NCBI GenBank assembly: GCA_035274845.1
Contig: DATENU010000024.1
Coordinates: 186,001-250,000, forward strand
DNA from: Chthoniobacterales bacterium
Lineage (GTDB): Bacteria > Verrucomicrobiota > Verrucomicrobiia > Chthoniobacterales > UBA10450
DNA: 64,000 bases
Direction: 5' to 3'
Shown: one piece after another, positions 44,817 through 60,854 of the stretch
How the letters are laid out: each line of letters starts with the position of its first letter
Numbering within the stretch: position 1 is the stretch's first letter
Position numbers and translations under genes: made by a program
Notes under the pieces: model-generated
Told to the model about the DNA's origin: nothing
Databases searched by the model: none
What the model saw: only the letters and a program-made list of their open reading frames with translations

Positions 44817-45623
44817 GTGATTGCCAAGCTAGTGAAAGACAGAAAGAACGCGGGACTACTTGCGCCCGAACAGTTTGCGAAATGGATGAGTTCCAATCGT
44901 GCCAATGACAAAAAGCATGGCCGGAAGGTTTACCGCTATCACCCGAGGTCGGACGAACACTCGAAACGCTTGTGTGCACTCGTTTTGGATGACTTGAAGG
45001 CCGTCTGTCCCCCGTTGGCTGAGCAGATTAATACGGGCGAAGTTCTCGCCCGAATTAACGCTGTTGTCGTTTTCGACAATGGCAAAACCAAGGCGTTGGA
45101 TCTCGCGATTGGCGAGCCCACCAGACCGCGGCCAGGAGAGCTAACATTACAAGGCCTTCCGGCGGGAACGATCGGCAAAGTGCGACTCTCTTGTGAAGCA
45201 AAACAGTGTATGACGGAGCACTCGAAGACAAAGCCACGTATTTTTGATGAACTCTCCTCCTCGCATGAAATTGTTCACCAAGGAGAATCTTCTGCGATCG
45301 CGACCGGGATTGTGGTTGTCAATGCGGCTCCGCGTTTCGCCTCTCCTCTTCGGCAGTCGCCGACCCCAGCTGAGATAATGTTTTCAAAACACTCGCAGCC
45401 CAAAGTAACTGCGGACATGGTGCGCCACCTTCGCGGTTTGAAACGTCGAGACGGCGCGACGGGCGTAGGATTCGACGCTTTCGCTACGATTGTCGTTGAT
45501 TGTGACAACACCAGCGATTGCAGTTTGGTCACCTCTCCGCCAGCGCCACAATTGGCAGAAAGTGACAATTACGAGGCGTTCTTGCTCAAGGTCGCCTCCA
45601 GCTATGCGGAGCGTTACGGGTGA
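44817..45623 (+). CDS. Restriction endonuclease-like protein of an R-M pair
   Basis: 268 residues from GTG at 44817. A PD-(D/E)XK-like core is visible: KALDLAIGEPTR with Asp95 and RLSCEAKQCM with Glu127 and Lys129, then ..PRIFDELSSSHEI... The gene overlaps the end of a DNA methyltransferase gene by 10 bases in convergent orientation, the standard layout of a type II restriction-modification pair. The recognition site cannot be deduced. I do not recognise a specific REase family, so the call rests on the core motif and the partner. Confidence 0.72.
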   Translation: MIAKLVKDRKNAGLLAPEQFAKWMSSNRANDKKHGRKVYRYHPRSDEHSKRLCALVLDDLKAVCPPLAEQINTGEVLARINAVVVFDNGKTKALDLAIGEPTRPRPGELTLQGLPAGTIGKVRLSCEAKQCMTEHSKTKPRIFDELSSSHEIVHQGESSAIATGIVVVNAAPRFASPLRQSPTPAEIMFSKHSQPKVTADMVRHLRGLKRRDGATGVGFDAFATIVVDCDNTSDCSLVTSPPAPQLAESDNYEAFLLKVASSYAERYG

Positions 45624-46573
45624 ACCGTGATTTGCGGAGTCTGCCGAAACAAGTGCTGTTGCGCGGCTGCATTCACGATCTTTGTTCGCGCGAGTTGAAA
45701 GTATTCTGCATCCAGCTCGTTCATGATGCTGTTTCTGTTCGCCTTCATCGCAGCCAACGTCGTTGAGCCCGTGCCTCCAAATGGGTCGAGGACAGTGTCG
45801 CCAGTAAACGAAAACATCCTTACCAAACGATAAGCAAGTTCGACGGGGAATGGTGCGGGATGATGTTTGGTTGATTCCCCACGGAGGTCAGTCCAAATGG
45901 GGCGAAACCACTGGGCCTGTTCTTCCTTTGTGAGTCGAGACGACGATCTCTGATCTGATGTGGGTTGTCGGTAAGCGCCATGCTTTCGCAGCATCAGAAT
46001 ATACTCGATATCATTCTTGATTATCCCGTTGGGCTCGTAAGGCTTTCCGAGAAATCCGCCACCGTTTCCTTCGGCTTCGAACGCCGCGTTGGCTATTTTG
46101 TTCCAGAGGATTGGAGTCAGATAGTCAAAACCGAGGCGCTCCGCGCGGACGGAGTAATGCGCATGCAGAGGAATTACGAGGTGTCGTCCGTTGTTTCGAC
46201 GGCGGGCAAGACAAACATCGCCGGTGTTACAGACGAGTCGTCCTCCGGGTATCAATACGCGATAGCAATGACGCCAGACTTTGTCGATCTCGTCTAGGAA
46301 ACTGTCCAAATCGGCGAGGTTGCCAAGCTGCGACTCGTGGGCGTTGTAGCGTTTGAGATTAAAATACGGCGGAGACGTTACAACAAGGTGCACGCTCGCA
46401 TCTGGAATCCACTCCATCGCTCGGGCGTCGCCGCAATGGAGTGTATGCTGAGTGGCGGCACCCGCATATTCGGTTTGCGGCGGGATGGCGGTCGCCGTGA
46501 TAGAACGCTCCGACCGCGACGCTACGACACTAGGACCGTCCAGCTCTGAGACGGTCGATTTAGGGCGCAGCAT
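45614..46573 (-). CDS. DNA methyltransferase (beta class, N4-cytosine or N6-adenine)
   Basis: 319 residues. Motif IV is TSPPYFNLK (66-74) near the N-terminus and motif I is DPFGGTGST (263-271) near the C-terminus, the beta-class order. SPPY rather than DPPY favours N4-cytosine methylation, but N6-adenine enzymes with this motif exist. The target recognition region lies between (about 130-240). It should protect host DNA from the convergent endonuclease. The 71-residue cysteine-rich protein gene lies 44 bases upstream on the same strand. Confidence 0.9.
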   Translation of the reverse strand: MLRPKSTVSELDGPSVVASRSERSITATAIPPQTEYAGAATQHTLHCGDARAMEWIPDASVHLVVTSPPYFNLKRYNAHESQLGNLADLDSFLDEIDKVWRHCYRVLIPGGRLVCNTGDVCLARRRNNGRHLVIPLHAHYSVRAERLGFDYLTPILWNKIANAAFEAEGNGGGFLGKPYEPNGIIKNDIEYILMLRKHGAYRQPTSDQRSSSRLTKEEQAQWFRPIWTDLRGESTKHHPAPFPVELAYRLVRMFSFTGDTVLDPFGGTGSTTLAAMKANRNSIMNELDAEYFQLARTKIVNAAAQQHLFRQTPQITVHP

Positions 46574-46617
46574 TACCGAAGTTTACGACGGCGGAAAGCC
46601 CGGTGCAATTCTTCCGT

Positions 46618-46833
46618 TCATAATCGAGACATCAATTCAGATTTCGGACGCAAGAATTTTGACCACCCAAGTTTCTCCAGCTTGTTGTGCGCCCGCTTTT
46701 TCCCTGCACGGGCGTCGGCGACCAACGCCTTTTTCAGTTTTGCGTCATGGCCAGGCAGAAACCGGCCGCCTTTCGTTCGACCACCGCAACCGCACAGACA
46801 TTCGGGGAGTTTGAGTTTTCTTTTCGTGTTCAT
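46618..46833 (-). CDS. Small cysteine-rich basic protein (CxCGCG-type)
   Basis: 71 residues, strongly basic. Core pattern CLCGCGGRTKGGRFLPGHDA with a K/R-rich tail. I know the CGCG...GGRFLPGHDAKL pattern from small proteins on phages and integrative elements, where it is thought to be a zinc- or nucleic-acid-binding piece. It ends 44 bases before the methyltransferase start on the same strand. A role as regulator of the R-M pair is possible but unproven. Confidence 0.65.
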   Translation of the reverse strand: MNTKRKLKLPECLCGCGGRTKGGRFLPGHDAKLKKALVADARAGKKRAHNKLEKLGWSKFLRPKSELMSRL

Positions 46834-47117
46834 CCCAAAATTAAAACACGCCCGGGAATTCCCCCTTTCGACAAGAGTTTCGGTCGCTTTTAGGGGATAG
46901 TTCGTCGCCTAAATATCTCCGCGAATTGACGTGCGACACGTCCGCGCCGTCCGCAAGGCCGCGCGCGTCGCGCGCGCACGCGCGAGAGTCTCGGAAGTTG
47001 GTTTCTCGATTGGAAGCGGCGCACCCCTACCTATCCGCGTGAGGACGCGACGATTTCGAACTCGACCTTACGCCAAGCGCTGGCTGCGCAGGAACAAGAG
47101 AATCCGGCGCAGCCTAT

Positions 47118-48065
47118 TTACAGCGGTGCTGTATGCTCTGGCTGGTTGCCATTCCCCGTAGCGGGATTGCCGAATTCCTGCAGGGGCGATTGCCACGACA
47201 CGATTTCTGCGCGGTCGAGGCAATTACTATAGTTTTCGCCAAGAATTCCTGTAAACGTGATCGAGTCGCCCTCGGACAACAGGAGGGCTCGATCACGTTC
47301 TGAATCGGGGAGCCACAACCAAACATCCGAATCCCACCAAGGTGAAGAACGCGGGTCCATCTGTACATCAACCTTCACCACGTATTCGCCGCTCACAGAA
47401 TGAACTTTGCCAGTCCATTTTATCTTCTTCCCCTGAATTTGCTTCCAGCTTTCATCTCTTTGAATCTCCGTCTGCGGAGATTCTCGACGTAGGAGCGACG
47501 CGACCGTCGGCCAGTCGATGTTGGAAATCGAAATCTCGGGATGGAGCGCTGCCTTCCGCTCCTCCCAAAGAGCACTCAACGATTGCAAGTTCGTGTCAAC
47601 ATACCACCGCCCTACACATACGAGAGACAGGCCGAAATACCAAACCCACACTCTCGAATCCAATGGCTCTGCTGAAAACCACCACCCAGCGATCAAGAGA
47701 GCGAACGCACACTGCGCGATGACTATGATACTGCCAAGTGGCGCACCCTTATCTTTTCGTGGCCGTTCGATCCCATAGTAAGAGATCGCCACACCGACGA
47801 CGAACGCCACCGCTGCGGCTGGAATCGTCTGGGCGCGTGTATAAGAGCTCGGCATTGACGCGGCGACGGCGGCAAACGTGAGGCCATATTCGAGGCCGAA
47901 CATCACCAGCTCGCGACCAATGGCGTAACCAAGGGCGGTCTCTTGCCGACCCTCTTCCGCGAGAAATAGGCAGAAGCGGTACAGCTTCGTTATCAGGCAG
48001 CCTACGGCAGCGAGAATTGCGGCAAGCGCCACGAGCCCCAAAAAGATTGCGACGAGCTGTGCCAA
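47118..48065 (-). CDS. Membrane protein with a C-terminal OB-like domain, unknown function
   Basis: 315 residues. Four to five membrane helices lie in the first 160 residues (AIFLGLVALAAILAAVGCL, a stretch near 60-70, IPAAAVAFVVGVAISYYG, GSIIVIAQCAFALLIAGWW, WVWYFGLSLVCVG). The cytosolic or periplasmic C-terminus (about 205-300) has KIKWTGKVHSVSGEYVVKVD and GDSITFTGILGENYSN, a pattern of OB-type beta barrels. No family is recognised. It is divergent from the XRE gene, and their shared 100-bp region holds two palindromes, so that regulator may control it. Confidence 0.65.
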   Translation of the reverse strand: MAQLVAIFLGLVALAAILAAVGCLITKLYRFCLFLAEEGRQETALGYAIGRELVMFGLEYGLTFAAVAASMPSSYTRAQTIPAAAVAFVVGVAISYYGIERPRKDKGAPLGSIIVIAQCAFALLIAGWWFSAEPLDSRVWVWYFGLSLVCVGRWYVDTNLQSLSALWEERKAALHPEISISNIDWPTVASLLRRESPQTEIQRDESWKQIQGKKIKWTGKVHSVSGEYVVKVDVQMDPRSSPWWDSDVWLWLPDSERDRALLLSEGDSITFTGILGENYSNCLDRAEIVSWQSPLQEFGNPATGNGNQPEHTAPL

Positions 48066-48107
48066 AGAGTCTCCCTCTAGAACCCGGCTGCAGGTATTAA
48101 CAAACCC

Positions 48108-48123
48108 GTGCGGAATTCGGCAC
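48108..48123. promoter_or_regulatory. Palindromic site GTGCGGAATTCGGCAC
   Basis: A near-palindrome (one mismatched base pair) in the divergent gap between the membrane-protein gene and the XRE gene. It shares GTGC...TTCGGCAC with the site at 48155, 47 bp away. Confidence 0.65.
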
Positions 48124-48154
48124 GATTACAGCACGGCAGATTTACTAGCGTCAA

Positions 48155-48170
48155 GTGCCGGATTCGGCAC
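48155..48170. promoter_or_regulatory. Palindromic site GTGCCGGATTCGGCAC
   Basis: Perfect 6-bp inverted arms GTGCCG/CGGCAC with spacer GATT, ending two bases before the XRE start codon at 48173. Its overlap with the translation start region suggests autorepression. Confidence 0.7.
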
Positions 48171-48172
48171 GG

Positions 48173-48454
48173 ATGGAGAACCCTCGCAACATGATCGGCC
48201 CGCAGTTGAGGCAAATTCGTAATAATCGTGGGCTATCTCAGCCGAAGCTGGCAGAACTGCTCCAGCGGAAGGGCTGGGATATTTCGCGCGATACCGTTGC
48301 CAAGATTGAAGATCAGCGGCGGTGGGTGTCCGATTTCGAGACCGCGTTTCTCGCGGAAGTGTTGCAGGTACCGCTGGAGGTGTTATTCGTAGCGCCCGGG
48401 CGCTCTCCAAAAGCGCGCGATTACATTTCGCGACTCGAGCGACCGCTAGGTTGA
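48173..48454 (+). CDS. XRE-family regulator (93 aa)
   Basis: ATG at 48173 preferred; a GTG at 48155 is in frame but sits inside a palindrome. The helix-turn-helix is IGPQLRQIRNNRGLSQPKLAELLQ (read in parts) with DISRDTVAKIEDQRRWV as recognition helix and following turn, then ..ETAFLAEVLQVPLEVLF.., a standard XRE end. The tail RDYISRLERP is short. It probably controls itself and the divergent membrane-protein gene through the two palindromic sites. Confidence 0.85.
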   Translation: MENPRNMIGPQLRQIRNNRGLSQPKLAELLQRKGWDISRDTVAKIEDQRRWVSDFETAFLAEVLQVPLEVLFVAPGRSPKARDYISRLERPLG

Positions 48455-48507
48455 GCAGTCGCTAAAGGGATTGAGCCTGCCGAAGGGAGGTCGTGGAACG
48501 CGCACTT

Positions 48508-49782
48508 TCAGCCCCCGGCATAGGCCGCGTCTTTGTCGCCAGCCTCGGCGATTAAATTATCCCACGGCCAGTGAACGGTACTAAACCGTCGATACAAAAG
48601 TAATTGCTTGTCAACAATGTACACTCGCTCTGTCGACTGATTATAGGATAGCACCATCCCGCGACCATCCTCATCAACTTGCAACTCCTCGATTTTTTCC
48701 AGCACCGTTTTCAAGTTCCCGCTTTGAATACGGTGCTGTCGTGCATGAGCAACCTTGAAGATATCCTGAAGGGATAAACCGTTAAGAAGATCCGAATCGG
48801 AGGCATCCATTATCACGGCAATGGCATGGGCATAAATGCCCGTCGAGTTCTTTCGCGTTCTGATCCCGCCAGACACGTTTGCCGCGAACTGTTGGTAGAG
48901 TGGATTAAGCAGCTCCGCGTATTCGAGCGCCGCTTGTTCGAGGGAGGCAGCATCGTCGAATTCCTTTGTGATGAAAAATCCGTCGGTAATTCCTGCTGCA
49001 TCCAGAGTCTTCAAAGTGAGCTGCTGCAAGATCCCGGCATTAGCGAATGAAAGGGACGCCAGCTGTTCTTGAATGCGGGGAGAGAAATTTATTCCAAGAG
49101 CCCTTCCACCTTTATCCAGAATGCGACGCAGGTCCGGTCTGTTCCATTCGACCGCGATCTCGTGGACACGACCAGAAAGGTCCGGATTGAGATGCAGGAG
49201 CATGTTCGATTGACTCCAGACACCGACGATCACGACGAACAATCTGTAATCCCACAACGCCTTCAGATCGAATGCGAATTCCCGGCGCGCCGCGATTGTC
49301 ATATAGTGAAAATCTTCAATAACCAAGCGCCGCCCCGATTCCCGAATCAAGTCCGCGACGAAGCGAAGATCGTTTATATCATGACCCACCTGTTGCGATG
49401 TCGTCGCTTCATTTGAAGCCCCACCAAGTTCTGCGCCGAGACCGACTTTGGCCAGCAACTTCACTCCAAATTCTCCCTTGGCCGTAAGTTTACCTTTAAT
49501 GGCACTGCTGGATTCTGCTGACACAACAAGTTGGATATCAAGCTGCGACAGAGCGTCGATGTAGACATCGCGCACGCTTTTCGACAATCGACATTGCACA
49601 ACCAGCGCGTCAGGAATCGCATTTTGCCGAAGCCAGGACTTTCCGCACTTCGACTCGCCCCTCAGCGCGATATGTGAATCACGGTTCAGATAAGTTCCGA
49701 ATTCTGCGTCCAATTCGCCGCGATCAATATACGAAACGGGACGGACCGTAGCGGCAATCCCAAACACCTCATGCGTTTTCAT
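48508..49782 (-). CDS. STAND/AAA-type ATPase, possible defence or regulatory NTPase
   Basis: 424 residues. Walker A is GESKCGKSW (42-50) and Walker B is RLVIEDFHY (152-160), with a sensor-like VVIVGVW strand following. The region after residue 240 is helical and includes a winged-helix-like segment near 340-390. The organisation is that of STAND/ORC-like P-loop ATPases. No effector domain is fused to either end. It is convergent with the XRE gene and has two small genes upstream on the same strand. Its partner is not clear. Confidence 0.72.
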   Translation of the reverse strand: MKTHEVFGIAATVRPVSYIDRGELDAEFGTYLNRDSHIALRGESKCGKSWLRQNAIPDALVVQCRLSKSVRDVYIDALSQLDIQLVVSAESSSAIKGKLTAKGEFGVKLLAKVGLGAELGGASNEATTSQQVGHDINDLRFVADLIRESGRRLVIEDFHYMTIAARREFAFDLKALWDYRLFVVIVGVWSQSNMLLHLNPDLSGRVHEIAVEWNRPDLRRILDKGGRALGINFSPRIQEQLASLSFANAGILQQLTLKTLDAAGITDGFFITKEFDDAASLEQAALEYAELLNPLYQQFAANVSGGIRTRKNSTGIYAHAIAVIMDASDSDLLNGLSLQDIFKVAHARQHRIQSGNLKTVLEKIEELQVDEDGRGMVLSYNQSTERVYIVDKQLLLYRRFSTVHWPWDNLIAEAGDKDAAYAGG

Positions 49783-49793
49783 TTGGCCGAGTG

Positions 49794-50045
49794 TTACCGC
49801 CGAATGATCCGAAATCCAGCATCATCGAGCTTAATTCCGGCTCCCGCCGTAGCACGGCGCAGGCGAACTCGTGGAACGGGCTGGGAACGGCTGGGTCGCT
49901 CGATGCCGCGCAGCGACATCCTGAAAAGCCCCGCAAGGAACGCGAGATACTGCGGATCGGCCAACCGCTTCCAATACAGATCGTTTAGGCGAGCGTGCTC
50001 CTCTGGAGGCAGGCGGAGATATTGATCAAAGGAGGGTGAGGTCAT
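49794..50045 (-). CDS. Small protein, possible partner of the STAND ATPase
   Basis: 83 residues from ATG at 50045; the open frame extends further but without support. It has a helical start (FDQYLRLPPEEHARLNDLYWKRL) and a basic tail (RLRRATAGAGIK). It ends 11 bases before the ATPase start, consistent with co-transcription. No family is recognised and no strong ribosome site is seen, so it may not be expressed. Confidence 0.45.
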   Translation of the reverse strand: MTSPSFDQYLRLPPEEHARLNDLYWKRLADPQYLAFLAGLFRMSLRGIERPSRSQPVPRVRLRRATAGAGIKLDDAGFRIIRR

Positions 50046-50340
50046 GTGGGGGGATCGAAAGGCGAGCGAGATCGCTAGCTGTTCGATTTTTTGGTGGAGG
50101 GTTTCTGGGGGATCATGGGCAAAGTGTGGCAAGTCTCGCGTTCGGGTAGAAGGAAAAAAAGCATCCCTCGGAGCCCAGCCAGAGGGACGTGTCGCGCCAC
50201 CACGAAAACTTTCCGGAGGCATCGCCGTGGGCTTCGGAGATGCCTCCGTCGCGCTTGGCGGTTGCGTCCGCTACTCCGAGACTGCCCCAATGGCGATCGG
50301 GCACCGCGTCGAATGCATTTTTATCAAACTCACGAGACCC

Positions 50341-51297
50341 TTACGGCAGGTACTCCATCGGTGGAAACACCTGTATCCCGTGCCATTCATAGCCAAGCCC
50401 ATCTGCGGTTTTGCCAATTCGCAACGCGTGCTTGAGGGCTGCACACTGCGCGGACGGCGATTCGACAACACTCTGAACGAATGTGTATGCAGCATCCTCA
50501 AGTTGCGACGCGACAATATGCGGTAAGAGGTAGGGACCGATCCGGCGGATCGAGTTGAGCTGTTTGAGAACTCGACGAATGCGTTGGAAGTGCAGTTCGC
50601 GCTCGGCTTGCGAATCGGCGGCATCTGGCTTGAGGAACGATGCCATTGTCGCAATCGCAGTTTCCGCGTCCCGCACCCACGCCACCGATGGAATAGAGAT
50701 AAACAGCAACCGGGCGAGGGCGATCCAATCCGGATCGCCGTAGGATTCGCGTGCCTTGCGCTCCAGCGCGAGGGCGCTTGCTAGAAAGTCGCCCGCAAGA
50801 CGCTTCGGCATTTCGCGGCGGAACTGTGCGGCGCGTAACTTCGCATCCAAGATGATCTCCGCGTTCTCTTCGGAAAAAGTCCTCGCTCCATCGGGAGCGA
50901 GACAAGCGCCAATAAGGGCAATCGCTTTGTCCAGGGAGAGAGCTGCATCCACTACCGCAGAAATTCGACGAACTTTCTCTCCGAACTCCATCCAACCGGT
51001 GTCACCTCGGTGGCGGATGATCGGGGTCGCGAGTTTTCCGCAGCTGCGCGCAAACCGTTTTTGGACGCCGCGAGGAATTGATTCCTCGCGGTCCCCGCAC
51101 AATTGTACGGCCTTTCCAAGGCAAATCAGATCGTCTCCGGACCAGCCCGGCTCCTTCCTCTTGCGGAAAGTGGCCTCGATCTTGGTAATCACCCATTCCA
51201 CGAGCGCTGTGTTCGGCGGGTGCGGCATCTCGTCGTAATCATCAACCGTCGCGACATCAGCTCGGTTCGGGTTCGGGGTTTGGTCGATTTTGTTCAT
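50341..51297 (-). CDS. Hypothetical protein, helical (318 aa)
   Basis: 318 residues, mostly amphipathic helices, no membrane segment and no cysteine cluster. I recognise no family. Its ATG overlaps the stop of the upstream gene by four bases (ATGA), so the two are a translationally coupled pair. It points away from the replication/integration operon that begins at 51731. It could be an accessory protein of the island, for example in maintenance; there is no direct evidence. Confidence 0.65.
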   Translation of the reverse strand: MNKIDQTPNPNRADVATVDDYDEMPHPPNTALVEWVITKIEATFRKRKEPGWSGDDLICLGKAVQLCGDREESIPRGVQKRFARSCGKLATPIIRHRGDTGWMEFGEKVRRISAVVDAALSLDKAIALIGACLAPDGARTFSEENAEIILDAKLRAAQFRREMPKRLAGDFLASALALERKARESYGDPDWIALARLLFISIPSVAWVRDAETAIATMASFLKPDAADSQAERELHFQRIRRVLKQLNSIRRIGPYLLPHIVASQLEDAAYTFVQSVVESPSAQCAALKHALRIGKTADGLGYEWHGIQVFPPMEYLP

Positions 51298-51644
51298 CGG
51301 TTGGCGGTTTCAAGGTTTGCGTCGCCCACCAGTTCCGGACGAATCCAATATTTTTCGGAATTAGCTCTGCCTGAACGGCCGTACCGAAACTTGCGGTTCC
51401 AGCGACGGTTTAGTTGCCACATCCAGCTTCGCATTGGGGTCTTAAAACCAGCGTGATCGTGAATTAGTTGCTCGCCCGATTTCAACGCAAGCAGCAGTTT
51501 AGTTTCCTTTCTAGGACCGGGACCAAGCGGCTTGCTCAGGTCGAAGTAACGCGGTTTCACTCCCCCTTTTCTCTCCCGATTTTGTCGGTGATGCGAGCCG
51601 GAACGCTGCTTCAAAGCGGAATTGTACGCGCCAACCCCGTTCAC
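51294..51644 (-). CDS. Small basic hypothetical protein, coupled to the next gene
   Basis: 116 residues, rich in R, K and aromatic residues (SWMWQLNRRWNRKFRYG). It has no recognised domain; the charge suggests nucleic-acid binding. The stop overlaps the start of the 318-residue gene (ATGA), the best evidence that this frame is used. It is divergent from the polymerase operon across an 86-bp gap that must hold both promoters. Confidence 0.55.
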   Translation of the reverse strand: MNGVGAYNSALKQRSGSHHRQNRERKGGVKPRYFDLSKPLGPGPRKETKLLLALKSGEQLIHDHAGFKTPMRSWMWQLNRRWNRKFRYGRSGRANSEKYWIRPELVGDANLETANR

Positions 51645-51730
51645 CTGTCAAGCGATTCAGAATTCCGTTCGCATGCTCGCAAAGGAGGCCTTCATTCGAG
51701 CCCCACAACAACAAACGAAAGGGAAACTCA

Positions 51731-52351
51731 ATGGAAAACACGATGGAAGAAAACGCCGAACGTCATCTCACGAAGGATCAAGATCAACCCTTACCCATCG
51801 GAGAGTTCGGGAAGATAGACCTCGCGAAATTCCGGATCCCCCAAGAAGGACTCGGCGAGGGTCAAACCGAGAGAATCATGACAACCGTGCGCGTAGGGAA
51901 ACCGACGAAGACCGCGTTTTTCCGCGTCAACCCGGCGCAGAATTACCGAATGCTGGCCGGCATTGTCGAGGTCGGCGCAATGGAACCTGAAGCGTATCTT
52001 GTTGTCGGGGCTCTTTGCGAGGCGCTGCTCGAGGAAGCGACGTTTTCGACGCGCATGCTGGTGACGGCGGTGACACTCGGCAGCACGCCGTTTATCTGGC
52101 CACTGAAAATGTCGACCGATAATTCGTGGACGCGTAGCGCTCACGACGCGGCGGAAATCGCAGAAAAGCGTTGGATTCGCCTTAAGGCGAACTCGGAACT
52201 CCGAGCGTACGAACTCATCGCCGCCGTTAACCAGAATCGGGAGCCGGTCTGGCCAGCGTTGTCGTTCGAGGAACTGGTCGATCTCGCGTTTCGCGGTCGC
52301 GTGATCGACACGGCTGATCATCCCGTGCTTCGCCAGCTGCGCGGCGAATAA
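51731..52351 (+). CDS. First gene of the polymerase-integrase operon, unknown function
   Basis: 206 residues. Internal patterns such as KTAFFRVNP, STPFIWPLKMST and SAHDAAEIAEKRWIRLKAN are ones I associate with small proteins next to family A polymerases on integrative elements, but the role is not known to me. No catalytic motif is visible. It is one base upstream of the polymerase start, so the two are tightly coupled. ATG at 51731 follows AAAGGGAAA, a fair ribosome site. Confidence 0.72.
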   Translation: MENTMEENAERHLTKDQDQPLPIGEFGKIDLAKFRIPQEGLGEGQTERIMTTVRVGKPTKTAFFRVNPAQNYRMLAGIVEVGAMEPEAYLVVGALCEALLEEATFSTRMLVTAVTLGSTPFIWPLKMSTDNSWTRSAHDAAEIAEKRWIRLKANSELRAYELIAAVNQNREPVWPALSFEELVDLAFRGRVIDTADHPVLRQLRGE

Positions 52352-52352
52352 G

Positions 52353-54152
52353 GTGGATTCGGTGTTCGCGGCTTTCCCTGAAATCTGGGTCGAGGACAGT
52401 GAGTTCGCGCAGGCTCCGGGCTGCCGTCCTATACCGCACTGTATCGTCGCCCGTGAGCTTCGCAGCAATCGTGTAATCCACCAGTGGGTCGCCGGCTCGG
52501 CGTGGTCGACCGAGCCAGCGAGCCCACATTTTTTATCTAGCGATCAGGCCCTGACAGTCACGTTTTTTGGCTCTGCCGAGGCTGGATGCCGTTTGGCCTT
52601 GGGAATGCCGCTACCCGCCAACCACATCGACCTTTACGCGGAATTCCGACTCCTGACGTGCGGGTCGCACTGGGACGGCGGTTATGCGTTGGTCGATGCC
52701 CTGCGGTATTTCGGAATCGACGCAGTGGACGCAGCGGGAAAAACCGAGATGCGCAAACTGGCGGTCCGCGGCGGCCCGTTCACCGCAGAGGAGAAACGCG
52801 ACCTCCTCCGATATTGCGAGCGGGATGTCGAGGCGACCTTGCGGCTTTTTGGCGTAATGCGGGATAAGATTGACCTTCCGCGCGCCTTGATCCGCGGTCG
52901 CTACGTGAACGTGGTCGCTATGATGGAGCATCACGGAATTCCGGTCGACGCGGACCTGGTCGGCCAACTCCGGGAAAATTGGGCGGAAATCCGCGGCTTG
53001 CTGATTTCGAGCGTTGACCGCGACTACGGCGTCTTCGACCGGGGCTCATTCAGGACTCGTAGGTGGGAGGAATGGCTGCGTACGCGTGGAATTGAGTGGC
53101 CTCGGCTTGCTAGCGGCGCGATGGCGCTAGACTTCGACACGTTTCGGGATGTTGCCCGGTCGTATCCAGAAGTCGCGCCGATGAAGGAGCTGCGCGCGAC
53201 TCTCAGTAAATTGCGGATTGATAGCTTGCCCGTCGGCCCAGACGGCAGGAACCGCACGTTACTCTCTCCCTTTCGCGCGAAAACCGGGCGCAATCAGCCG
53301 AAGTCGAGTCAATTCATTTTCGGTCCGGCGAAGTGGGTACGCGGCCTGATTCGCCCACCTGCAGGGAAGGCCCTCGCCTACTGTGATTTTTCAAATCAGG
53401 AATTTGGAATTTCGGCTGCGCTCTCCGGAGACATCGGCATGCAAGCGGCATACTGCACGGGCGATCCGTACCTTGCGTTTGCGAAGAGTGCCGGCGCTGC
53501 TCCCGAAGACGCGACCGCCAAAAGCCACAGGGCGGCTCGCACGCTGTTCAAGACCTGCGTGCTCGGGATGCAGTACGCCATGGGAGCGGAGACCCTCGCG
53601 CGTCGGACCAAGCTTTCTATCGCGCACGCGCGTGCGTTGATCGACACGCACCGCACGACGTATCCCGCGTACTGGAGATGGACTCAGAGCGTGCAGGATC
53701 AAGCGACCCTTAACGGGCAGTTGCAGGCCTCTTTCGGATGGCGCGTGCGTGTCAACGACGACACGAATCCGCGGTCGACTGGCAATTTTTTGGCGCAGGC
53801 GAACGGCGCGGAGATGCTCCGCGTTGCCTGCATCCTGGCGTCTGAAGCCCGGGTCGCAATCTGCGCTCCCCTGCACGATGCGCTCTTGATCGAAGCCGAC
53901 GCGGACGACATTGATGTTCACGTCGAGCTTTGCCGGTCGGCAATGCGCCGGGCGAGCGAACTCGTGCTGGCAGGGTTTCCTCTGCGGATCGAGGCCAAAA
54001 TCACCCGCTATCCTGATCGCTTTCCGACCAGCGCGGCAGCGATGTGGGAAAAAGTCCTGGGCATTCTGGATCAGGTCGCGCCCGATGCCGCGGTGGGTCG
54101 CAACGGGACACCGAGTGTGTCGCCGGGAAACACCCGGCTCCTCTTTTCATAA
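52353..54152 (+). CDS. Family A DNA polymerase with 3'-5' exonuclease domain
   Basis: 599 residues from GTG at 52353. The N-terminal part is DnaQ-like: WVEDSEF (motif I type), HIDLYAEFR and YCERDVEAT (motif III). The polymerase part has motif A AYCDFSNQEFGI, motif B around RAARTLFKTCVLGMQYAMG, and motif C as LHDALLIEA, where the usual HDE reads HDA. The metal-binding aspartate is kept but the glutamate is not. It has no 5'-3' exonuclease domain. It is in an operon with a large serine recombinase, so it probably copies or repairs the element during excision or transfer. Confidence 0.88.
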   Translation: MDSVFAAFPEIWVEDSEFAQAPGCRPIPHCIVARELRSNRVIHQWVAGSAWSTEPASPHFLSSDQALTVTFFGSAEAGCRLALGMPLPANHIDLYAEFRLLTCGSHWDGGYALVDALRYFGIDAVDAAGKTEMRKLAVRGGPFTAEEKRDLLRYCERDVEATLRLFGVMRDKIDLPRALIRGRYVNVVAMMEHHGIPVDADLVGQLRENWAEIRGLLISSVDRDYGVFDRGSFRTRRWEEWLRTRGIEWPRLASGAMALDFDTFRDVARSYPEVAPMKELRATLSKLRIDSLPVGPDGRNRTLLSPFRAKTGRNQPKSSQFIFGPAKWVRGLIRPPAGKALAYCDFSNQEFGISAALSGDIGMQAAYCTGDPYLAFAKSAGAAPEDATAKSHRAARTLFKTCVLGMQYAMGAETLARRTKLSIAHARALIDTHRTTYPAYWRWTQSVQDQATLNGQLQASFGWRVRVNDDTNPRSTGNFLAQANGAEMLRVACILASEARVAICAPLHDALLIEADADDIDVHVELCRSAMRRASELVLAGFPLRIEAKITRYPDRFPTSAAAMWEKVLGILDQVAPDAAVGRNGTPSVSPGNTRLLFS

Positions 54153-54160
54153 CTCTTCTT

Positions 54161-54601
54161 ATGGATCGAAAAGTTTTTGACCTTTCCCACTACCGTGGCC
54201 GAGACGAATCACCGATCTCCACCCGGCGGAGTTCGACCGCTTTGGGTGCCCGCAGGCAGGGCGAATTCTTGAAAGGCCCTATTCCGCTGTCGTGGCTCAG
54301 CGTTGCCGCCTGTTTACCGGGCAAAGCCCTCCATGTTGGTGTCGCCATCTGGTTTGAGCACGGCCGGAGAAAGCACGCACAGTTCAAATTGACCGCCGCC
54401 ATCGTCAAACGGTTCGGCGTGGCTCGCAAGGCAGGATATCGCGCTCTGGGCACGTTGGAGCGTGCCGGTTTGATCAAAACAGATCGCCGACACGGCAAGA
54501 ACCCTATCATCACACTCACTACCGAGCCCAAACCCTTGGACCGGGGCGGCTCGCGCCCCTCCAACGACGTGCAAACGCGGGAAAGACCGGAGCAGCCGTG
54601 A
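54161..54601 (+). CDS. Winged-helix DNA-binding protein of the operon
   Basis: 146 residues from ATG at 54161, 8 bases after the polymerase stop. The middle reads LHVGVAIWFEHGRRKHAQFKLT, then VKRFGVARKAGYRALGTLERAGLI and KTDRRHGKNPIITL, the recognition helix and wing of a small winged-helix fold. The N-terminus (DLSHYRGRDESPIS) is not recognised. It may regulate the operon or act in replication initiation. Its stop overlaps the next GTG start. Confidence 0.7.
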   Translation: MDRKVFDLSHYRGRDESPISTRRSSTALGARRQGEFLKGPIPLSWLSVAACLPGKALHVGVAIWFEHGRRKHAQFKLTAAIVKRFGVARKAGYRALGTLERAGLIKTDRRHGKNPIITLTTEPKPLDRGGSRPSNDVQTRERPEQP

Positions 54602-54876
54602 GCGGTAAGATTAGAGCTACGCCCTCTTCGCGAATCGCCGAACCTCTCCCGGCTGTCGTGGAACGGCTACTCGCCGTCGCCCATGCGGAGGAACTGCAAG
54701 TGAAAGGGCTGCACGAATCGGTTCGTCGGCTGTGCGACGCGATCTCGCGTCAGGATTGGGAAACGGCGGCGGCGATGGCGATAGTCGTTTCGAGCGCGCT
54801 ACCATCTGCGAACGCCGTGACCCCGTTGGCAGAAAATTGCGGCGATTTGGCTGCGCCTGCTTTTTTAGAATCATGA
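54598..54876 (+). CDS. Small protein between winged-helix protein and integrase
   Basis: 92 residues from GTG at 54598 (GTGA overlap with the previous gene). One long helix (PAVVERLLAVAHAEELQVKGL) is the main feature. The end overlaps the recombinase start (ATGA). No family is known to me. The double overlap argues that it is translated and needed in step with the integrase. Confidence 0.65.
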   Translation: MSGKIRATPSSRIAEPLPAVVERLLAVAHAEELQVKGLHESVRRLCDAISRQDWETAAAMAIVVSSALPSANAVTPLAENCGDLAAPAFLES

Positions 54877-56684
54877 TCACCCAGCGTGCAACAGCCAACC
54901 CAATCGCACTGACACCTGCTCCGCCGTTGCGTGTCGCACGCTGGGTGAGGGTGAGTACGGATGAGCAAGCAAAGGACGGGCATGCCGGTCTGCAGAGGCA
55001 ATACGCTCAAACGGATCGCATCATTGCGACACGTGGCTACGAATTAGTGGCCTCTTTCGAAGTCATCGCGGTAAGCGGCGCTAGTGTGGTTGCGCACGCT
55101 CCGGAGTTCCAAGCGCTCATGAACTTGGTTAGGACCGGCGCCATTCAGGCGATTATTGTGAGCGAGGCAAGTCGGCTGATGCGTGTTGACTCTTGGGAGA
55201 GTCTCGGTTGCCTGGATTGCCTCGGAAAATATCGTGTCCCGATCATCGCGGACGGCACGGAGATCGATTTTTCGAGTTTTGCTACTGCGATCCCTCTCCT
55301 GTTTGCCGCGGACGAACGTCTCGATAACGTGCAGAAGATTTCCGACAGCAAGGCAGCCTTGAGGCTCGAAGGGAAATTGGCATCAGGGGGAAAAACGCTC
55401 CCATTCGCAGTGCGCTACAGCAGACGGAAGCACAAATTCCGTTACGACGTGAAGGATATCTGGCGCGTCCAGAAGGCTTTTGAACTGGTAGATTTGGGAA
55501 ACACCAACCTCTCGTCCGTTGCCCGCGCCACGGGCTTTCAGCGCACCGGCATACGCTATATTCTCACTAACCCAATCTACATCGGCATCCGCCGGTATGA
55601 CACCAAGCGCGATCCGAACGTGAAACGCGTTGGCCGTGATGGCCGCAAAACCTATCGACCCAAAATTCGGTTACTTCCCGAAGAGATTCTCGAAATACGC
55701 GTCATCGCACAGCCAGCGGTCCCGCCCGATCGCTTTCAACGCGTGCAGCGAATATTGGAAGAGTTGCGACTCAACCACGTCGCAACTCTGCCGAAGGAAA
55801 AGCGCGTTCACCTCTGCACGACCTACGGGAGATGCGGTTGCTGCGGCCAGGCGCTCTATATTAGTGGAAACGGCAAGAAGGATAAGGTTACAGGGATGCC
55901 GCTGCTATGGTACTGCTGCCGCAGCCAGCATCCCGGCAAAAAGGGAACCCTGCCGCGTTGCACCAATTCGTGGACGAATTCCAAAAAACTCAACGCACTG
56001 CTCGTCGCGTTTGCGACCAGCGTTCTCACCGATCCGGAGTTGTTGACGGGACTCATCAGAAGATCGATCAAGCTCTCGTCAGATGTAATCCGTCCGTTCC
56101 CAAAACGCGGAGGAGTGCAAGAATTGATCGCGAAGCTCGAAAAACAAGAGCACAAACTCATCCGAATGTGCTCTTCGGACGCGATCTCCATCGCGGAATT
56201 GAAACGTGAACGAATGAAGGTTCGCGACGAGATGGACCGGCTTCGCGCCGCCAGCTCGCCGCCGGAATGCCGGCCGATGACCCTTGAAGGATTTGCACGG
56301 CTGGTAATCAAAGGCGCGCTCGGCTTCCAGCGCCTTCAGAATGCCCGCGAGCAAAAGACGGTGCTGGAGCAAATCTTTTCCGAGGTGTTCTTCCGCCACG
56401 ACACAATAACGGCGTTTCGCTTCACTCCGAGCCTCGTCGGAAGCACGGACGAGCACGCAAAAGAAATGGGACGGATCATCAATCTGGAAAAACCGTTCCG
56501 CATCACACCCGAAATCCCAGAGAGTCACAAGCAGTGCTCCAAGTGCCTTGCGATCTTGCCAAACGATTCATTTCGCAAGGGTCGGTTGCTCTGCCCCGAT
56601 TGCTTTCGGGTCTACAACACCCAACGATCCCGACACTATCGCCAGCGTCGCACCCTTAACATCGGGCCGCAGGCTTCGGCCTAA
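54873..56684 (+). CDS. Large serine recombinase, probable island integrase
   Basis: 603 residues from ATG at 54873; an upstream open frame is overlap with the previous gene. The catalytic serine is in ARWVRVSTDEQA (Ser28). The recombinase domain with the DNA-recognition loop covers about 170-280 (NPIYIGIRRY), then a zinc ribbon with CGCCG and WYCC, a coiled-coil region (LIAKLEKQEHKLIRM) and a second zinc ribbon at the end (CSKCLAILP ... CPDC). This is the large serine integrase layout used by phages and integrative elements. It is the only protein in the island suited to insert a 27-kb element at a short core such as TCTTCGA. Confidence 0.93.
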   Translation: MITQRATANPIALTPAPPLRVARWVRVSTDEQAKDGHAGLQRQYAQTDRIIATRGYELVASFEVIAVSGASVVAHAPEFQALMNLVRTGAIQAIIVSEASRLMRVDSWESLGCLDCLGKYRVPIIADGTEIDFSSFATAIPLLFAADERLDNVQKISDSKAALRLEGKLASGGKTLPFAVRYSRRKHKFRYDVKDIWRVQKAFELVDLGNTNLSSVARATGFQRTGIRYILTNPIYIGIRRYDTKRDPNVKRVGRDGRKTYRPKIRLLPEEILEIRVIAQPAVPPDRFQRVQRILEELRLNHVATLPKEKRVHLCTTYGRCGCCGQALYISGNGKKDKVTGMPLLWYCCRSQHPGKKGTLPRCTNSWTNSKKLNALLVAFATSVLTDPELLTGLIRRSIKLSSDVIRPFPKRGGVQELIAKLEKQEHKLIRMCSSDAISIAELKRERMKVRDEMDRLRAASSPPECRPMTLEGFARLVIKGALGFQRLQNAREQKTVLEQIFSEVFFRHDTITAFRFTPSLVGSTDEHAKEMGRIINLEKPFRITPEIPESHKQCSKCLAILPNDSFRKGRLLCPDCFRVYNTQRSRHYRQRRTLNIGPQASA

Positions 56685-56794
56685 GCAAAGGCCTTTTCGG
56701 GAGGCCACATCCACGTCTTTGGGATGATTTCTAGGACTTTTTTGACATTGCGTAAGCACTGCTAATGAATTATGATACAGGCTGGTCATTTCAC

Positions 56795-57568
56795 ATGCCC
56801 AAAGTACGCAATAAACAAACTCGCAAGCGCTCAGCTTTCGCGGAGATGCTCGTCAGCAAGCGTACCGAAGCTGACCTGACGCAGCGAGACCTGGCAAACC
56901 CAGACAAGGGCCTAAGCCACAGTTTCATCGCGCTCTTGGAGACTGACCGTCGAGGGAAGGCAGAGCCAACGCTAACTCGCGGCCAAGTGTGGTACCTAAT
57001 TCAAAAACTGGAAATATGGCCGCCTGATTCGGATCGGTTTTTGGAAGCCGCCGGTCACGAGGCCGATCGGTCGGCCAAAGAGGAATTGGATATTCAGGAA
57101 CGTTTCGAATTCGACGAGCTTTGGGTCTATGCCCGTTACATTTTGGACCCCGACGATGCTTGGTTCGAGGTCGTCTACAACAATATCGTTGGGAGCCGAG
57201 CGATAGCCTATCGGTACTTTACGGAAGACAAGACACCGTTCTTAAACTTGGTTTATCGGTTATCCGAAGCGGGAGTTGATGAAACGCTCCTCAAGAGCCG
57301 ACTCGAGTGCACTATCGTGCCTCCGGATTTTTTCATCTCAAGCTTTGCGTTATATCTTAAGGACAAACGCCCGCGGTACGGTTGTGGGACAAAGCTCCAC
57401 GAAGGTCGGGCCGAGAAGTTTTATGCCATGCATGCTTCTGAGGCCTCACGTTTGTTCGAAATGCTCCGCAGGTGGAGGGATTCGCTTCGCCGCGAACATG
57501 ATATCTCCCTGAGTCCGTTGCGACGAATATATCCGGAACCAAAACAGTCTAAGTTTGTCGCCGAATGA
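56795..57568 (+). CDS. XRE-domain regulator with unknown C-terminal domain
   Basis: 257 residues from ATG at 56795 (MPKVRNKQTRK); an ATG ten codons upstream is possible. The first 70 residues form an XRE helix-turn-helix (FAEMLVSKRTEADLTQRDLA ... SFIALLETDRRGKAEPT). The remaining 180 residues (FDELWVYARYILDPDDAWFE onward) are not recognised and resemble the ligand-binding halves of some XRE regulators. It is 21 bases upstream of the transporter gene, so it may control the transporter and methyltransferase pair. Confidence 0.75.
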   Translation: MPKVRNKQTRKRSAFAEMLVSKRTEADLTQRDLANPDKGLSHSFIALLETDRRGKAEPTLTRGQVWYLIQKLEIWPPDSDRFLEAAGHEADRSAKEELDIQERFEFDELWVYARYILDPDDAWFEVVYNNIVGSRAIAYRYFTEDKTPFLNLVYRLSEAGVDETLLKSRLECTIVPPDFFISSFALYLKDKRPRYGCGTKLHEGRAEKFYAMHASEASRLFEMLRRWRDSLRREHDISLSPLRRIYPEPKQSKFVAE

Positions 57569-57589
57569 TCTAACCGAGGTCCGAAAACA

Positions 57590-58285
57590 ATGGAACGCGC
57601 CAACGCCCCTACTCTGAAGGACAAAACGTTTAAGCTTTACGACGTAGTGTCGATGTTATTTGTGGCGGTATATCTCATTTCACAGGTGGCTAGCGCGAAA
57701 TTGTTTTCGTTCGGACCGTTCCAGTTTCCTGGGGCGATCATAATATTTCCATTCAGTTACATCTTCGGTGACATCTTGACCGAGGTTTACGGTTATGCCC
57801 GAACCCGCCGAACCATTTGGATTGGGTTTTTTTCCGCCGTCTTGATGGCCGTCACGTTTTGGGTTGTTGAGAAACTGCCGCCAGCGGCAGGGTGGCTGAA
57901 TCAAGAGGCTTACGAGAAGATCCTTGGAATAGTACCGCGGGTCGTCCTCGGCAGCATCGTGGGCTACTGGGTGGGAGAGTTCGTGAACTCCTTTGTAATG
58001 GCGAAACTAAAGATATTCACCGAAGGCAAGCATCTATGGACACGAACAATAGGCTCGACCCTGGCGGGGCAAGCGTTCGATACCGCCGCCTTTGTTCTCA
58101 TTGCTTTCTCAAGCATGATGCCCTTCCCGGTGCTCCTTAAGCTTTCCCTCAGCGTTTACGTCTTCAAAGTTGTCTACGAAACCGTGGCAACTCCACTTAC
58201 CTACGCAATTGTCGGGTACCTGAAGCGTATTGAGGGTATAGACATCTACGACCGCGGGACCAATTTTTCTCCTTTTAGATTTTGA
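57590..58285 (+). CDS. yhhQ: Queuosine precursor transporter (YhhQ/VUT family)
   Basis: 231 residues with six membrane helices. Family landmarks are VAVYLISQVASAKLFSFGPF near the start and FPFSYIFGDILTEVYGY, where the D-I-L-T-E-V-Y-G signature is typical, then the terminal VYETVATPLTYAIVGYLK. YhhQ-type proteins import queuine or preQ0/preQ1. Its stop overlaps the TTG start of a methyltransferase gene. On a mobile island it may supply a 7-deazaguanine base for tRNA or DNA modification; no DpdA-like or QueD-like gene is seen here. Confidence 0.9.
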   Translation: MERANAPTLKDKTFKLYDVVSMLFVAVYLISQVASAKLFSFGPFQFPGAIIIFPFSYIFGDILTEVYGYARTRRTIWIGFFSAVLMAVTFWVVEKLPPAAGWLNQEAYEKILGIVPRVVLGSIVGYWVGEFVNSFVMAKLKIFTEGKHLWTRTIGSTLAGQAFDTAAFVLIAFSSMMPFPVLLKLSLSVYVFKVVYETVATPLTYAIVGYLKRIEGIDIYDRGTNFSPFRF

Positions 58286-59097
58286 AGGCAACTCCTACAA
58301 ACATTAGCATCACTGCGACAGAGAAACGGATACGAACTTCTTCCGAGGAAGTGGATCTCCATCGCCTGTACGACGACGCGGCCAAAGATTGGTCGCGAGA
58401 TACTCCCGAAGTCAGAGACGATCTCATCACATGGCCCTTTCTCGTCAGGAAGATACGGGATTTCGCTTCCAACGGCATTGTCGTCGATATCGGCTGCGGC
58501 ACTGGCAACATTTGCCGTCTTGCAAGCCCGCATGTGAAAACGGCCATCGGACTAGACATCTCACAAGAAATGATATCTGAAGCCGAGCGATGTTCGGCCG
58601 GAGTTCGCAACGTTCTGTATGTCAGAGCCGACATGAGGCACCTTGCAGGCGCGATCGCCCCTACCTCGGCAGATTTGGTTTTGTCAATTTTCGGATATTG
58701 CTGCCTTGAATCCCGTGAAGAATTGAACCTCACGTTGCGCGAGACTGCTCATATATTGAAACCTGGCGGACGGCTACTCTTACAGATACCGCACCCCTGC
58801 GAACCACTATTTGAAAGCAAGTCGCAATGGGCTCGCGAACTCGACCCCTTGGGAAACTATTTCAACAATGGCGCGACGGTGCGACGACGATTGCGCATGG
58901 TAAATGGCAAATGGGTTACCGTAGGTCGCCATCATTTTACCCTCAGTTGTTATTTCGACGAGATATTAAACGTAGGTCTGGCGATTCGGCAGGTCATCGA
59001 ACCTCAAGCGCCGGCGCAATTGATCGAGAAGCATCCGGATCTTGCTCCCGAAGCGGCACGACCATCGTCCATATTCATCGTGGCGCAGAGGTTGTAG
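58282..59097 (+). CDS. Class I SAM-dependent methyltransferase
   Basis: 271 residues from a TTG start that overlaps the transporter stop (TTGA). SAM-binding motif I is VVDIGCGTGNICR (about 68-80), followed by GLDISQEMI (motif II-like) and ADLVLSIFGYCCLE. The C-terminal half (GRLLLQIPHPCEPL, HHFTLSCYFDEIL) fits the small-molecule methyltransferase type. No DNA-methylase D/S-PPY motif is present. Its tight coupling to a queuosine transporter suggests a linked metabolic or modification step; the substrate is unknown. Confidence 0.85.
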   Translation: MKATPTNISITATEKRIRTSSEEVDLHRLYDDAAKDWSRDTPEVRDDLITWPFLVRKIRDFASNGIVVDIGCGTGNICRLASPHVKTAIGLDISQEMISEAERCSAGVRNVLYVRADMRHLAGAIAPTSADLVLSIFGYCCLESREELNLTLRETAHILKPGGRLLLQIPHPCEPLFESKSQWARELDPLGNYFNNGATVRRRLRMVNGKWVTVGRHHFTLSCYFDEILNVGLAIRQVIEPQAPAQLIEKHPDLAPEAARPSSIFIVAQRL

Positions 59098-59876
59098 AAG
59101 CTGAGGTTGGTGTGGTCGAGGCGGCACGGTTATCACTCAAACCGTCTGGAGCGATCATTCTCTTGAGCGTCACGTGCTTACCCGGCCTATGGCAATCGCG
59201 CCACCGCCGGTGACGTGTTGCGAGGCAACGCGATCCGTGCCGCGAGGGTAATCAGTCAGTCATCCCCATCCCGGACCAATCGTTGCCCCGTTCTAACGTC
59301 GGGGAGGGCCGCGTCTCGGCGTTTACGGAGTCAGCTGGCAATAGGACCAAAATTATCAGGGCCTCGTCTTGCCAGGTCGGGAGTGCGATTGGAACGACGG
59401 TGACGCGGGTTGCGGTATCAATCGTCATTTCTTTCTTTCTATGGTGTGTGCAATTTGCGGCACTTGATTTTGGCCGCGCGGTTTCGATAAAGTTTTTCGC
59501 AAGCGATACGGGCTGAGTGCTCATCTGACGGGTTTCCATAAATCTCGATCGCGAAGTACTTTCCCCGTCGCTCGGCGATTCCGAAACGAATCGGCACGTC
59601 TAAAAATTCCAGGGATCGGAAAATATGAACATTCACGATAATAGAAAGCACTATAGTTGAATTGTAAGCAAGACTTTAATTATGACATTTTTGACACATT
59701 CTCGCACCCGCCTCTTGTCGGCCAATCGCGATCGGCGTGGGAAAACGCTCTACCAGATCGCTATCCTTTGGAGACAAAGCGAAACGAGAGCGCTCCAAGA
59801 AGACGGGGAAGAGCCTTGGCGGCGGCTAAGCACGCTGGCGGGTAATGCGCGGCGCTAAGAGTGATGGTCGTTGGCG
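59098..59876. other. Right end of the island, no supported gene
   Basis: About 780 bp. A 70-residue minus-strand frame at 59439-59651 (VPIRFGIAERRGKYFAIEIY) has a protein-like composition but no family resemblance and no clear ribosome site. The rest is composed of short frames. The AT-rich patch near 59650-59700 could be a promoter or an accessory binding site near the att junction. Confidence 0.55.
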
Positions 59877-60854
59877 TCCGTCTTCGAGCGGCTGGCGCAT
59901 CACTTCGAGGGTCGAGCGTTTGAACTCCGGCAGCTCGTCGAGAAAGAGCACGCCGTGGTGGGCGAGGCTGACTTCGCCAGGCGCGGGAATGGCGGAGCCG
60001 CCGAGAAGACCCACATCCGAGATGGTGTGATGCGGCGAGCGAAAGGGCCGGGTGGAAACAAATGCCTGCTCGCCGTTCAGCATTCCCGCGATGCTGTGGA
60101 TCTTCGTGCTTTCGATCGCTTCCTCGAGCGACATCGGCGGCATGATGGTGGCGATTCGTTTCGATAACATCGATTTGCCGGAGCCAGGCGGGCCGATCAT
60201 CAACAGGTTATGACCGCCGGAAACGGCCACTTCGATGGCGCGCTTCACGTGCCCCTGCCCTTTCACGTCGGCGAAATCGACCTCGTAGTTTTTGTGGGTG
60301 GCGAAAAAGGAACTGAGATCTCCGTAAGTCGGCGCGATCAGCGATTCGCCCCGGATGAACTGGAAGGTTTCGCGCAGATTATGGACGCCGTACACCGTGA
60401 TACCCTCCACCATCGCGGCTTCGTGCGCGTTGGCTGCGGGGACGAAGATCGCTTCCTTTTTTTGCCGCCGCGCCTCGAGCGCCACCGGCAACACGCCTTT
60501 CACGGCCCGGACGCCGCCATCGAGCGCCAGCTCGCCAACGAAGCTGAATTTCTCGAATGGATTGCCGGTGATTTCCTCAGCCACTGCGATCATGCCCAGT
60601 GCAATCGGCAGGTCGAAACTCGGCCCTTCTTTCTTAATGTCGGCCGGGGCGAGGTTGATCGTGGTCCGGCCGCGCGGCCAATAATAGCCGCTGTTTTGGA
60701 TCGCAGTCGTCACCCGATCCCGACTTTCCTTCACCGCCGTGTCAGGCAGGCCGACGATGATGATTTTTATTTCGCCGCGTCCGCCGTTAACCTCAATTTC
60801 AACTTCGTAGGCATCAACGCCATAGACCGCGGCAGAATAAATCTTGGCCAGCAT
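59826..60854 (-). pseudogene. comM: comM (yifB) N-terminal part, truncated by the island
   Basis: The first 326 codons are normal ComM/YifB: the start [20 protein letters not shown], the S5-like N-terminal domain, Walker A GPPGSGKS (221-228), [20 protein letters not shown] and [10 protein letters not shown] (Walker B). After L-E-D-G (59877) the frame continues for 17 island-encoded residues and stops. The missing C-terminal part is at 32522-33094. ComM works as a hexameric helicase in transformation and recombination. Separation of the P-loop core from the C-terminal region very probably abolishes function. Confidence 0.93.
59877..59891. other. Right attachment junction of the island (attR)
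   Basis: Plus-strand TCCGTCTTCGAGCGG against TCCATCTTCGAACGG on the left. The core TCTTCGA at 59881-59887 is shared. Sequence to the right is comM; to the left is island. Confidence 0.8.

Follow-up and report, generated by a model that had tools for sequence, protein, structure and literature searches.

An operon of five genes inside comM

The window, meaning the whole 64,000-nucleotide stretch of Chthoniobacterales DNA that was analyzed, carries five genes on its + strand at 51731-56684, in the order g1, polymerase, g3, g4 and integrase (Table 1). The genes are closely packed. A single base separates g1 from the polymerase gene and 8 bases separate the latter from g3; g3 and g4 share GTGA (54598-54601), and g4 and the integrase gene share ATGA (54873-54876). 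This is exactly the layout described in an earlier note on this DNA, and its statement that the operon couples a family A polymerase (DNA_pol_A) to a large serine integrase (Resolvase and Recombinase) was confirmed. In Pfam, PHROGs and NCBIfam, no family was matched above cut-off by g1, g3 or g4. The note had counted two proteins in the operon with no known role; that is right for g1 and g4 as far as family matches go, but g1 proved to be a recurring partner of the polymerase. A search for origin repeats upstream of the operon gave short two-copy repeats and no iteron-like array, and scans for promoters (1 vs. 1.7) and terminators (10 vs. 7.1) were near chance. GC3 is 0.60-0.71 in the operon and 0.52-0.61 in the defense cargo described below, ranges that differ but touch.

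The operon lies within an island that we delimit at about 26.8 kb because comM is split there, yet is contiguous across the same site in 7/7 congeners. The two comM halves jointly span the TIGR00368 profile (1-323 and 309-499 of 499). A target gene split at one point and intact there in relatives marks an integrative element. In one of the congeners, G005, comM is intact at the window's site, and another element interrupts it about 90 bp further on. Three genes separate the integrase gene from the nearer end of the island, about 3 kb away, and this interval holds a gene for a Vut_1 transporter and one for a methyltransferase (57590-59097).

Table 1. Positions of the operon genes, the comM halves and the element boundaries in the window.
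Feature	Position	Strand	Remarks
comM/yifB C-terminal half, copy A	32522..33090	-	TIGR00368 3.1e-63, profile 309-499; homology begins at core
attR-like core TCGAAGATGGA	33080..33090	-	start of comM C-terminal half
Integrated element	33085..59882		about 26.8 kb, defense-type cargo
318 aa protein	50341..51297	-	divergent from operon; shares 28% identity with a relative in the G005 C27 element
g1	51731..52351	+	206 aa; recurring partner immediately 5′ of polymerase; possible OB-fold single-strand DNA-binding protein
Polymerase	52353..54152	+	family A, 599 aa, GTG start; 3′-5′ exonuclease-like N-terminus; 5′-3′ exonuclease not found
g3	54161..54601	+	146 aa, ATG start; winged-helix protein, third member of the trio
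g4	54598..54876	+	92 aa; no relative found
Integrase (int)	54873..56684	+	large serine integrase, 603 aa
comM/yifB N-terminal half	59826..60854	-	TIGR00368 1.3e-122, profile 1-323 of 499
attL-like core TCGAAGACGGA	59877..59887	-	end of comM N-terminal half

The cargo of the island is of the defense type. It includes genes with Lamassu-type matches (HamA/LmuA, LmuB, LmuC), genes for a TIR protein and for a DNA methyltransferase, and PDC-S59. The three Lamassu-type genes lie at 38702-42301 (HamA/LmuA with a Cap4 nuclease, LmuC, LmuB), and the PADLOC candidate defense protein PDC-S59 at 48508-49782 (E = 3e-186). Pfam and PHROGs searches of the island ORFs (those of at least 90 aa, with 59252-59539 excluded) found no terminase, portal or capsid gene that would mark a prophage, and no relaxase or type IV secretion gene that would mark a conjugative or mobilizable element. 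No helicase or primase was recognized among the scanned genes of the island.

A second C-terminal copy of comM (copy B, 28802-29265) is 89% identical to copy A (32522-32985) and begins near the end point of the comM match of G005 and G116; it is perhaps the trace of another comM insertion. About 16 kb (16.5-32.5 kb) separate copy A from the response regulator gene; in the congener L053, about 2.7 kb separate comM from that gene. An inverted repeat of about 95 bp (33821-33914 and 38402-38495, 82% alike) flanks an HTH gene (36076-38382), and three related direct repeats are found at 21320-21549, 22942-23169 and 23997-24115 (84-88% alike).

The polymerase

The polymerase matches PF00476 (DNA_pol_A) with an E-value of 1.8e-20 and 73.7 bits, against a cut-off of 34.3, and has Klenow-type matches as well. 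It keeps the catalytic Asp345 and Asp509 of motifs A and C and thus belongs to family A. DNA_pol_A is its sole Pfam domain. Lacking the N-terminal 5′-3′ exonuclease domain, it is not a Pol I orthologue (PolA1). Its IMG/VR relatives, and the terminase beside one of these (locus L027, below), provide the phage homologs and prophage context that characterize PolA3. In the window itself, no virion gene was found among the ORFs scanned. PolA3 would also have an intact 3′-5′ exonuclease active site. By alignment, the ExoI D-x-E and ExoIII Y-x-x-x-D motifs of a 3′-5′ exonuclease are present, and ExoII has Glu for Asp, as in 16/18 members of its clade (L031 has Asp and L025 Val). Because of this Glu, proofreading is unsure.

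The earlier note had read HDA instead of HDE in motif C. The reading is correct, but HDA is found across the clade (18/18); it is thus a signature of the clade rather than a local loss or a defect, and a special meaning is not supported. The residue at this position (E883 in the Klenow enzyme) is not known to be strictly needed. All 18 members also carry leucine at position 762 (E. coli residue numbers were derived from the alignment) and D-x-x-x-Q-E in motif A, and the block QANGAEM is exact in 16/18. Two polymerases from phage contigs outside the 18, L036 and L070, likewise have HDA and Leu762. In the remaining outgroup rows motif C reads HDE and position 762 is Phe (Leu in L009); motif C lies beyond the coverage of L062. 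Leu762 is reported to occur primarily in temperate phages (PMC6302109; see also PMC9069017).

In the tree, the 18 rows form one group (support 86/88), which is joined by L070 (100/99), with a warning of long branches. The tree was built without L061 (the same gene as L006), L062 (partial) and the interrupted, cut or duplicate polymerases of L032, L033, L035, L067 and L069, and it contains no PolA3 reference. In L033, the polymerase frame (9968-12274) contains about 155 additional residues, with homology on both sides of them. Searches against plasmids gave 15 records at 21.8-28.4% identity. Two plasmid matches, L081 and L082, were set aside; they group together (100/100) and L082 is annotated as Pol I. 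Phages gave 407 records, all <60% identical and at 22-25% among the matches listed (20 of 407). When the polymerase of L027 was used as the query at an E-value of 1e-15, one phage record (26.9%) and no plasmid were matched.

Partners of the polymerase

Homologs of the polymerase were drawn from genomes and viral contigs. Single-protein scans of the genome and viral contigs found no relative, and relatives were found with alignment queries. They come from Verrucomicrobiota, deltaproteobacteria and a Devosia MAG, the rest being IMG/VR contigs or other genomes, and their distribution is sparse. Among 147 related genomes (own included), 10 have any polymerase match at an E-value of 0.001, and a near full-length match of >40% identity is confined to the window and G109. 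A match at 1e-20 was found in 2/387 genomes of a phylum sample, own included, and a match at 1e-60 in 2/297 genomes of the order of the Devosia MAG, that MAG included.

The earlier note had asked for the same gene order elsewhere. The order of all five genes is unique to the window among the loci examined, but its first three genes recur: g1, polymerase and g3 are found in that order in 16 of the 24 loci that carry a related polymerase, counting the window. Three loci have no room for g1 (L029, L030, L067) and L069 is cut before g3, which accounts for four; L080 has g1, with g3 undetected; and in L031, L035 and L070 the polymerase stands alone, with neither g1 nor g3. Thus, g1 precedes the polymerase in 18/21 loci with room, being missing in the last three. 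The profiles for the trio were built from part of the 24 loci. In the loci with room that are independent of these profiles, g1 is found in 6/9 (L020 in part, L066, L068, L069, L078 and L080; not L031, L035 or L070) and g3 in 4/8 (L066, L067, L068 and L078; not L080, L031, L035 or L070). The counts for the 24 loci overstate the number of independent ones: L031 and L035 share almost the same sequence across 18 kb, and so do L066 and L067 across 5 kb. Two names are duplicates, L021 being the L017 contig and L023 the L016 contig. At L018 (G130; 10091-10754), the remnant of a polymerase C-terminus is followed by a g3 relative, a decayed form of the module. No tblastn match to g4 was found in the loci examined, and the window is the only one of these loci in which the order continues into g4 and a serine integrase. 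The position of g4 beside the integrase would suit a directionality factor, at a guess.

The AlphaFold model of g1 (pLDDT 80.7, 12 sequences) has its best structural neighbors in the gp32 proteins of RB69 (Z 4.3, 137 residues) and T4 (Z 4.0, 132 residues), both at an rmsd of 4.7 and below the firm level. Against viral structures a single match fell below 0.001 (E = 3.9e-4, named oxidoreductase-like), and a phage SSB was matched at 0.016. As these structural matches are weak, a role for g1 as a single-strand DNA-binding protein is a lead only. Plasmids gave no match to the g1 query. The model of g3 (pLDDT 78.8) is a winged helix. Its numerous structural neighbors include ORC1 (Z 8.9); another bears the title 'Structure of initiator' (Z 7.5). 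A Foldseek search of the PDB with g1 and g3 gave no match at an E-value of 0.001 or better.

The settings of the trio are varied. Tyrosine integrases were identified by Pfam in L016 (= L023), L024, L025, L027, L032, L033 and L080, and L066 has a small resolvase. In L025 and L033 the integrase is found 3′ of the trio, a position that it also has in the window; a small HTH gene intervenes in L033. The window's integrase had no match in the trio loci (tblastn, 1e-3), so these lack a closely similar serine integrase. In L027, a viral contig, the trio has a tyrosine integrase upstream and a GpA terminase (Pfam) about 1.5 kb downstream; a large serine recombinase is also present. Putative terminases were seen by eye in L028, L029, L032, L066 and L068; the terminase confirmed by Pfam is that of L027. 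The L016 element carries relatives of the beta clamp (TIGR00663 9.7e-14, below cut-off; phrog_947 4.2e-23) and of DNA ligase. Because its relatives keep such company (varied integrases, a terminase, clamp and ligase relatives), the trio is, judged by sequence comparison, a replication-type module that moves in the company of one integrase or another. The tie to element replication proposed in the earlier note is therefore supported by the presence of the trio in viral contigs and in other integrative elements.

The same comparison bears on whether the polymerase, g1 and g3 form an anti-phage system amid the other defense genes of the island. In PADLOC, the polymerase matches RTasPolA alone (2.9e-23), and its neighbors include the Lamassu-type genes and PDC-S59. 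The RTasPolA match, though, is limited to a region of family A polymerase, the scanned ORFs showed no reverse transcriptase, and a defense role would be odd for the trio of L027, placed between an integrase and a terminase on a viral contig. We consider a defense system improbable.

The integrase and its family

The integrase has Resolvase (1.4e-9) and Recombinase (9.1e-6) domains above the Pfam cut-offs; its zinc ribbon (Zn_ribbon_recom, PF13408) scores 20.8 bits, below the cut-off of 25.3. It matches phrog_95 (1.8e-42). The catalytic serine lies in VRVST, and Ser28, Arg101 and Arg104 are invariant in five aligned rows. The two domains together with the serine identify a large serine integrase.

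The family has five copies in 213 genomes of the order (E = 1e-70), and comM is broken at three of these: the window, G005 C27 and G116. The comM match ends at residue 380 (G005 C27) and 400 (G116) of 535, past the window's site, and the second comM half was not found in the stretches fetched for these two. For G019 and G005 C2, no comM was found within the 15-17 kb fetched. As a raw count, replication genes are within about 4 kb of the integrase in four of the five copies, window included. They are of different kinds: the family A polymerase in the window, a family B polymerase in G005 C2 and G019, and a primase-helicase (phrog_239) in G005 C27; a replication gene was not recognized near the integrase of G116. 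The polymerases of G005 C2 and G019 are 54% identical to each other and both match a PHROG DNA polymerase; the former matches DNA_pol_B_2 (2.6e-8) and the latter is without a Pfam match. Replication genes other than the window's thus accompany integrases of the same family in 3/4 relatives, which also supports the tie to element replication. Motif C of a family B polymerase is expected to be of the DTD type. Two family B-type polymerases near a serine integrase (L084, 10205-12703; L086, 11890-14124) read TTDG at motif C.

These copies may represent a class of serine-integrase elements in bacteria lacking Pol I, favoring comM and carrying their own replication kits with polymerases swapped between unrelated families, i.e., a counterpart of the pipolins. 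We put this forward tentatively, and rather doubt than expect that it will hold.

The host background

Apart from the island polymerase, the host genome has no PF00476 match. None of the 7 congeners has such a match or the island polymerase, and a PF00476 match was found in 5/58 genomes, own included, with assemblies that are not all complete. The island polymerase might, in such a lineage, serve repair in the host. The scarcity of PF00476 would fit this idea. The congeners, however, live without Pol I and without this polymerase, and a relative of the polymerase is found in a Devosia MAG, from a group that normally has Pol I. Service to the host is therefore very unlikely. The joining of the integrase and phage-type replication genes in one operon suggests that the island can copy itself in a bacterium seemingly without the usual enzyme of this kind. 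A significant fraction of Verrucomicrobia is reported to lack Pol I (PMC12926913).

A proposed function for the operon

Our best reading is that a phage-derived replication module has been joined to a serine integrase and copies the element after excision. That the module and the integrase act together on the excised element from comM we hold probable, at roughly 60%. The serine integrase of the operon is most likely what moves the island, and it presumably acts at comM. We infer excision, replication of a circle, and the roles of g1, g3 and g4 as follows. The integrase would have placed the island in comM and would release it again in circular form. The trio of g1, polymerase and g3 would be a replication module of the temperate-phage type, in which the polymerase with Leu762 and an HDA motif C would copy the element, g1 might bind single-stranded DNA, and the winged helix of g3 might bind at an origin of the element or regulate the operon. 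The tight packing of the genes leads us to propose that copying and excision would start together, so that the excised circle could be multiplied before moving on or re-integrating. Several observations weigh against this reading: the iteron search upstream of the operon and the search for a helicase or primase among the scanned island genes were negative; the five-gene order occurs once among the loci examined, whose integrases are not close to the window's; L031, L035 and L070 lack both partners; ExoII has Glu; the structural match of g1 is weak; the integrase is some 3 kb away from the island end; G116 showed no replication gene near its integrase; and GC3 differs between operon and cargo.

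The earlier note had suggested that element replication or gap repair is tied to excision. Element replication is favored by the comparisons above, and repair of a gap left by integration or excision is not. Serine integrases cut and re-join both DNA strands without gaps, so there would be nothing to repair, and the same trio is found elsewhere near tyrosine integrases. With nothing but the shared operon to suggest it, gap repair is extremely unlikely.

A more serious alternative is a relic: the module would stem from a prophage or phage satellite, and the island would no longer excise or replicate, its defense cargo being what is retained. The relatives in viral contigs, the ORF scans, in which no structural, relaxase or secretion gene was seen, and the absence of the polymerase from all 7 congeners each speak for such a relic. 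The five frames, on the other hand, are all open and tightly joined, the catalytic residues of both polymerase and integrase are kept, and a decayed example looks different (L018, where a C-terminal remnant of the polymerase precedes the g3 relative). We therefore regard a relic as rather unlikely and prefer an element that still copies itself after excision.

The operon links a lineage of family A polymerases with HDA and Leu762 (18/18) and two recurring partners to a site-specific integrase. Should the circle replicate, the island would count as an integrative element that copies itself by means of a family A polymerase, with the trio as its compact replication kit, and the system would offer a setting in which to study the replication of mobile elements in bacteria without Pol I.

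Comparison with known systems

Phage satellites of the PICI type have an integrase, a replication gene and cargo without virion genes, and the window's island is alike in this. The AbaR islands are inserted in comM of Acinetobacter, with a mobility system other than the window's. In the titles and abstract starts of the literature searched, no operon that combines a family A polymerase with a serine integrase was found among the matches listed, nor was the g1-polymerase-g3 trio itself.

The following comparisons draw on the available parts of the papers cited. Pipolins, too, are integrative and encode both a DNA polymerase and a recombinase, but they have piPolB and a site in a conserved tRNA gene where the window has a family A polymerase, a serine integrase and a site in comM (PMC7385651). 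A primer-independent family B polymerase defines the pipolins; the window's polymerase, being of family A, places the island outside them. The PolA3 of prophages is, like the window's polymerase, a family A enzyme without a 5′-3′ exonuclease, scattered in bacteria and with phage relatives (PMC12926913). Compared by description, the window's enzyme differs in the Glu of ExoII, and the part of the paper available does not mention the trio partners for PolA3 (PMC12926913). In phage WO, the serine recombinase sr1WO splits a host magnesium chelatase gene, much as comM is split here; phage WO differs in being a prophage, and a family A polymerase operon is unmentioned in the available text (PMC9203015). 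The phage PolA groups with Leu762 share this leucine and the link to temperate phages, but are often near SNF2, RecB and UvrD helicases, none of which was recognized in the window's island (PMC6302109). Thus, as far as these partial sources go, serine recombinases in a magnesium chelatase gene, PolA3 of the prophage type and pipolins were already known, and what seems new, judged by the literature searched, is the g1-polymerase-g3 trio and the operon that joins a family A polymerase to a serine integrase.
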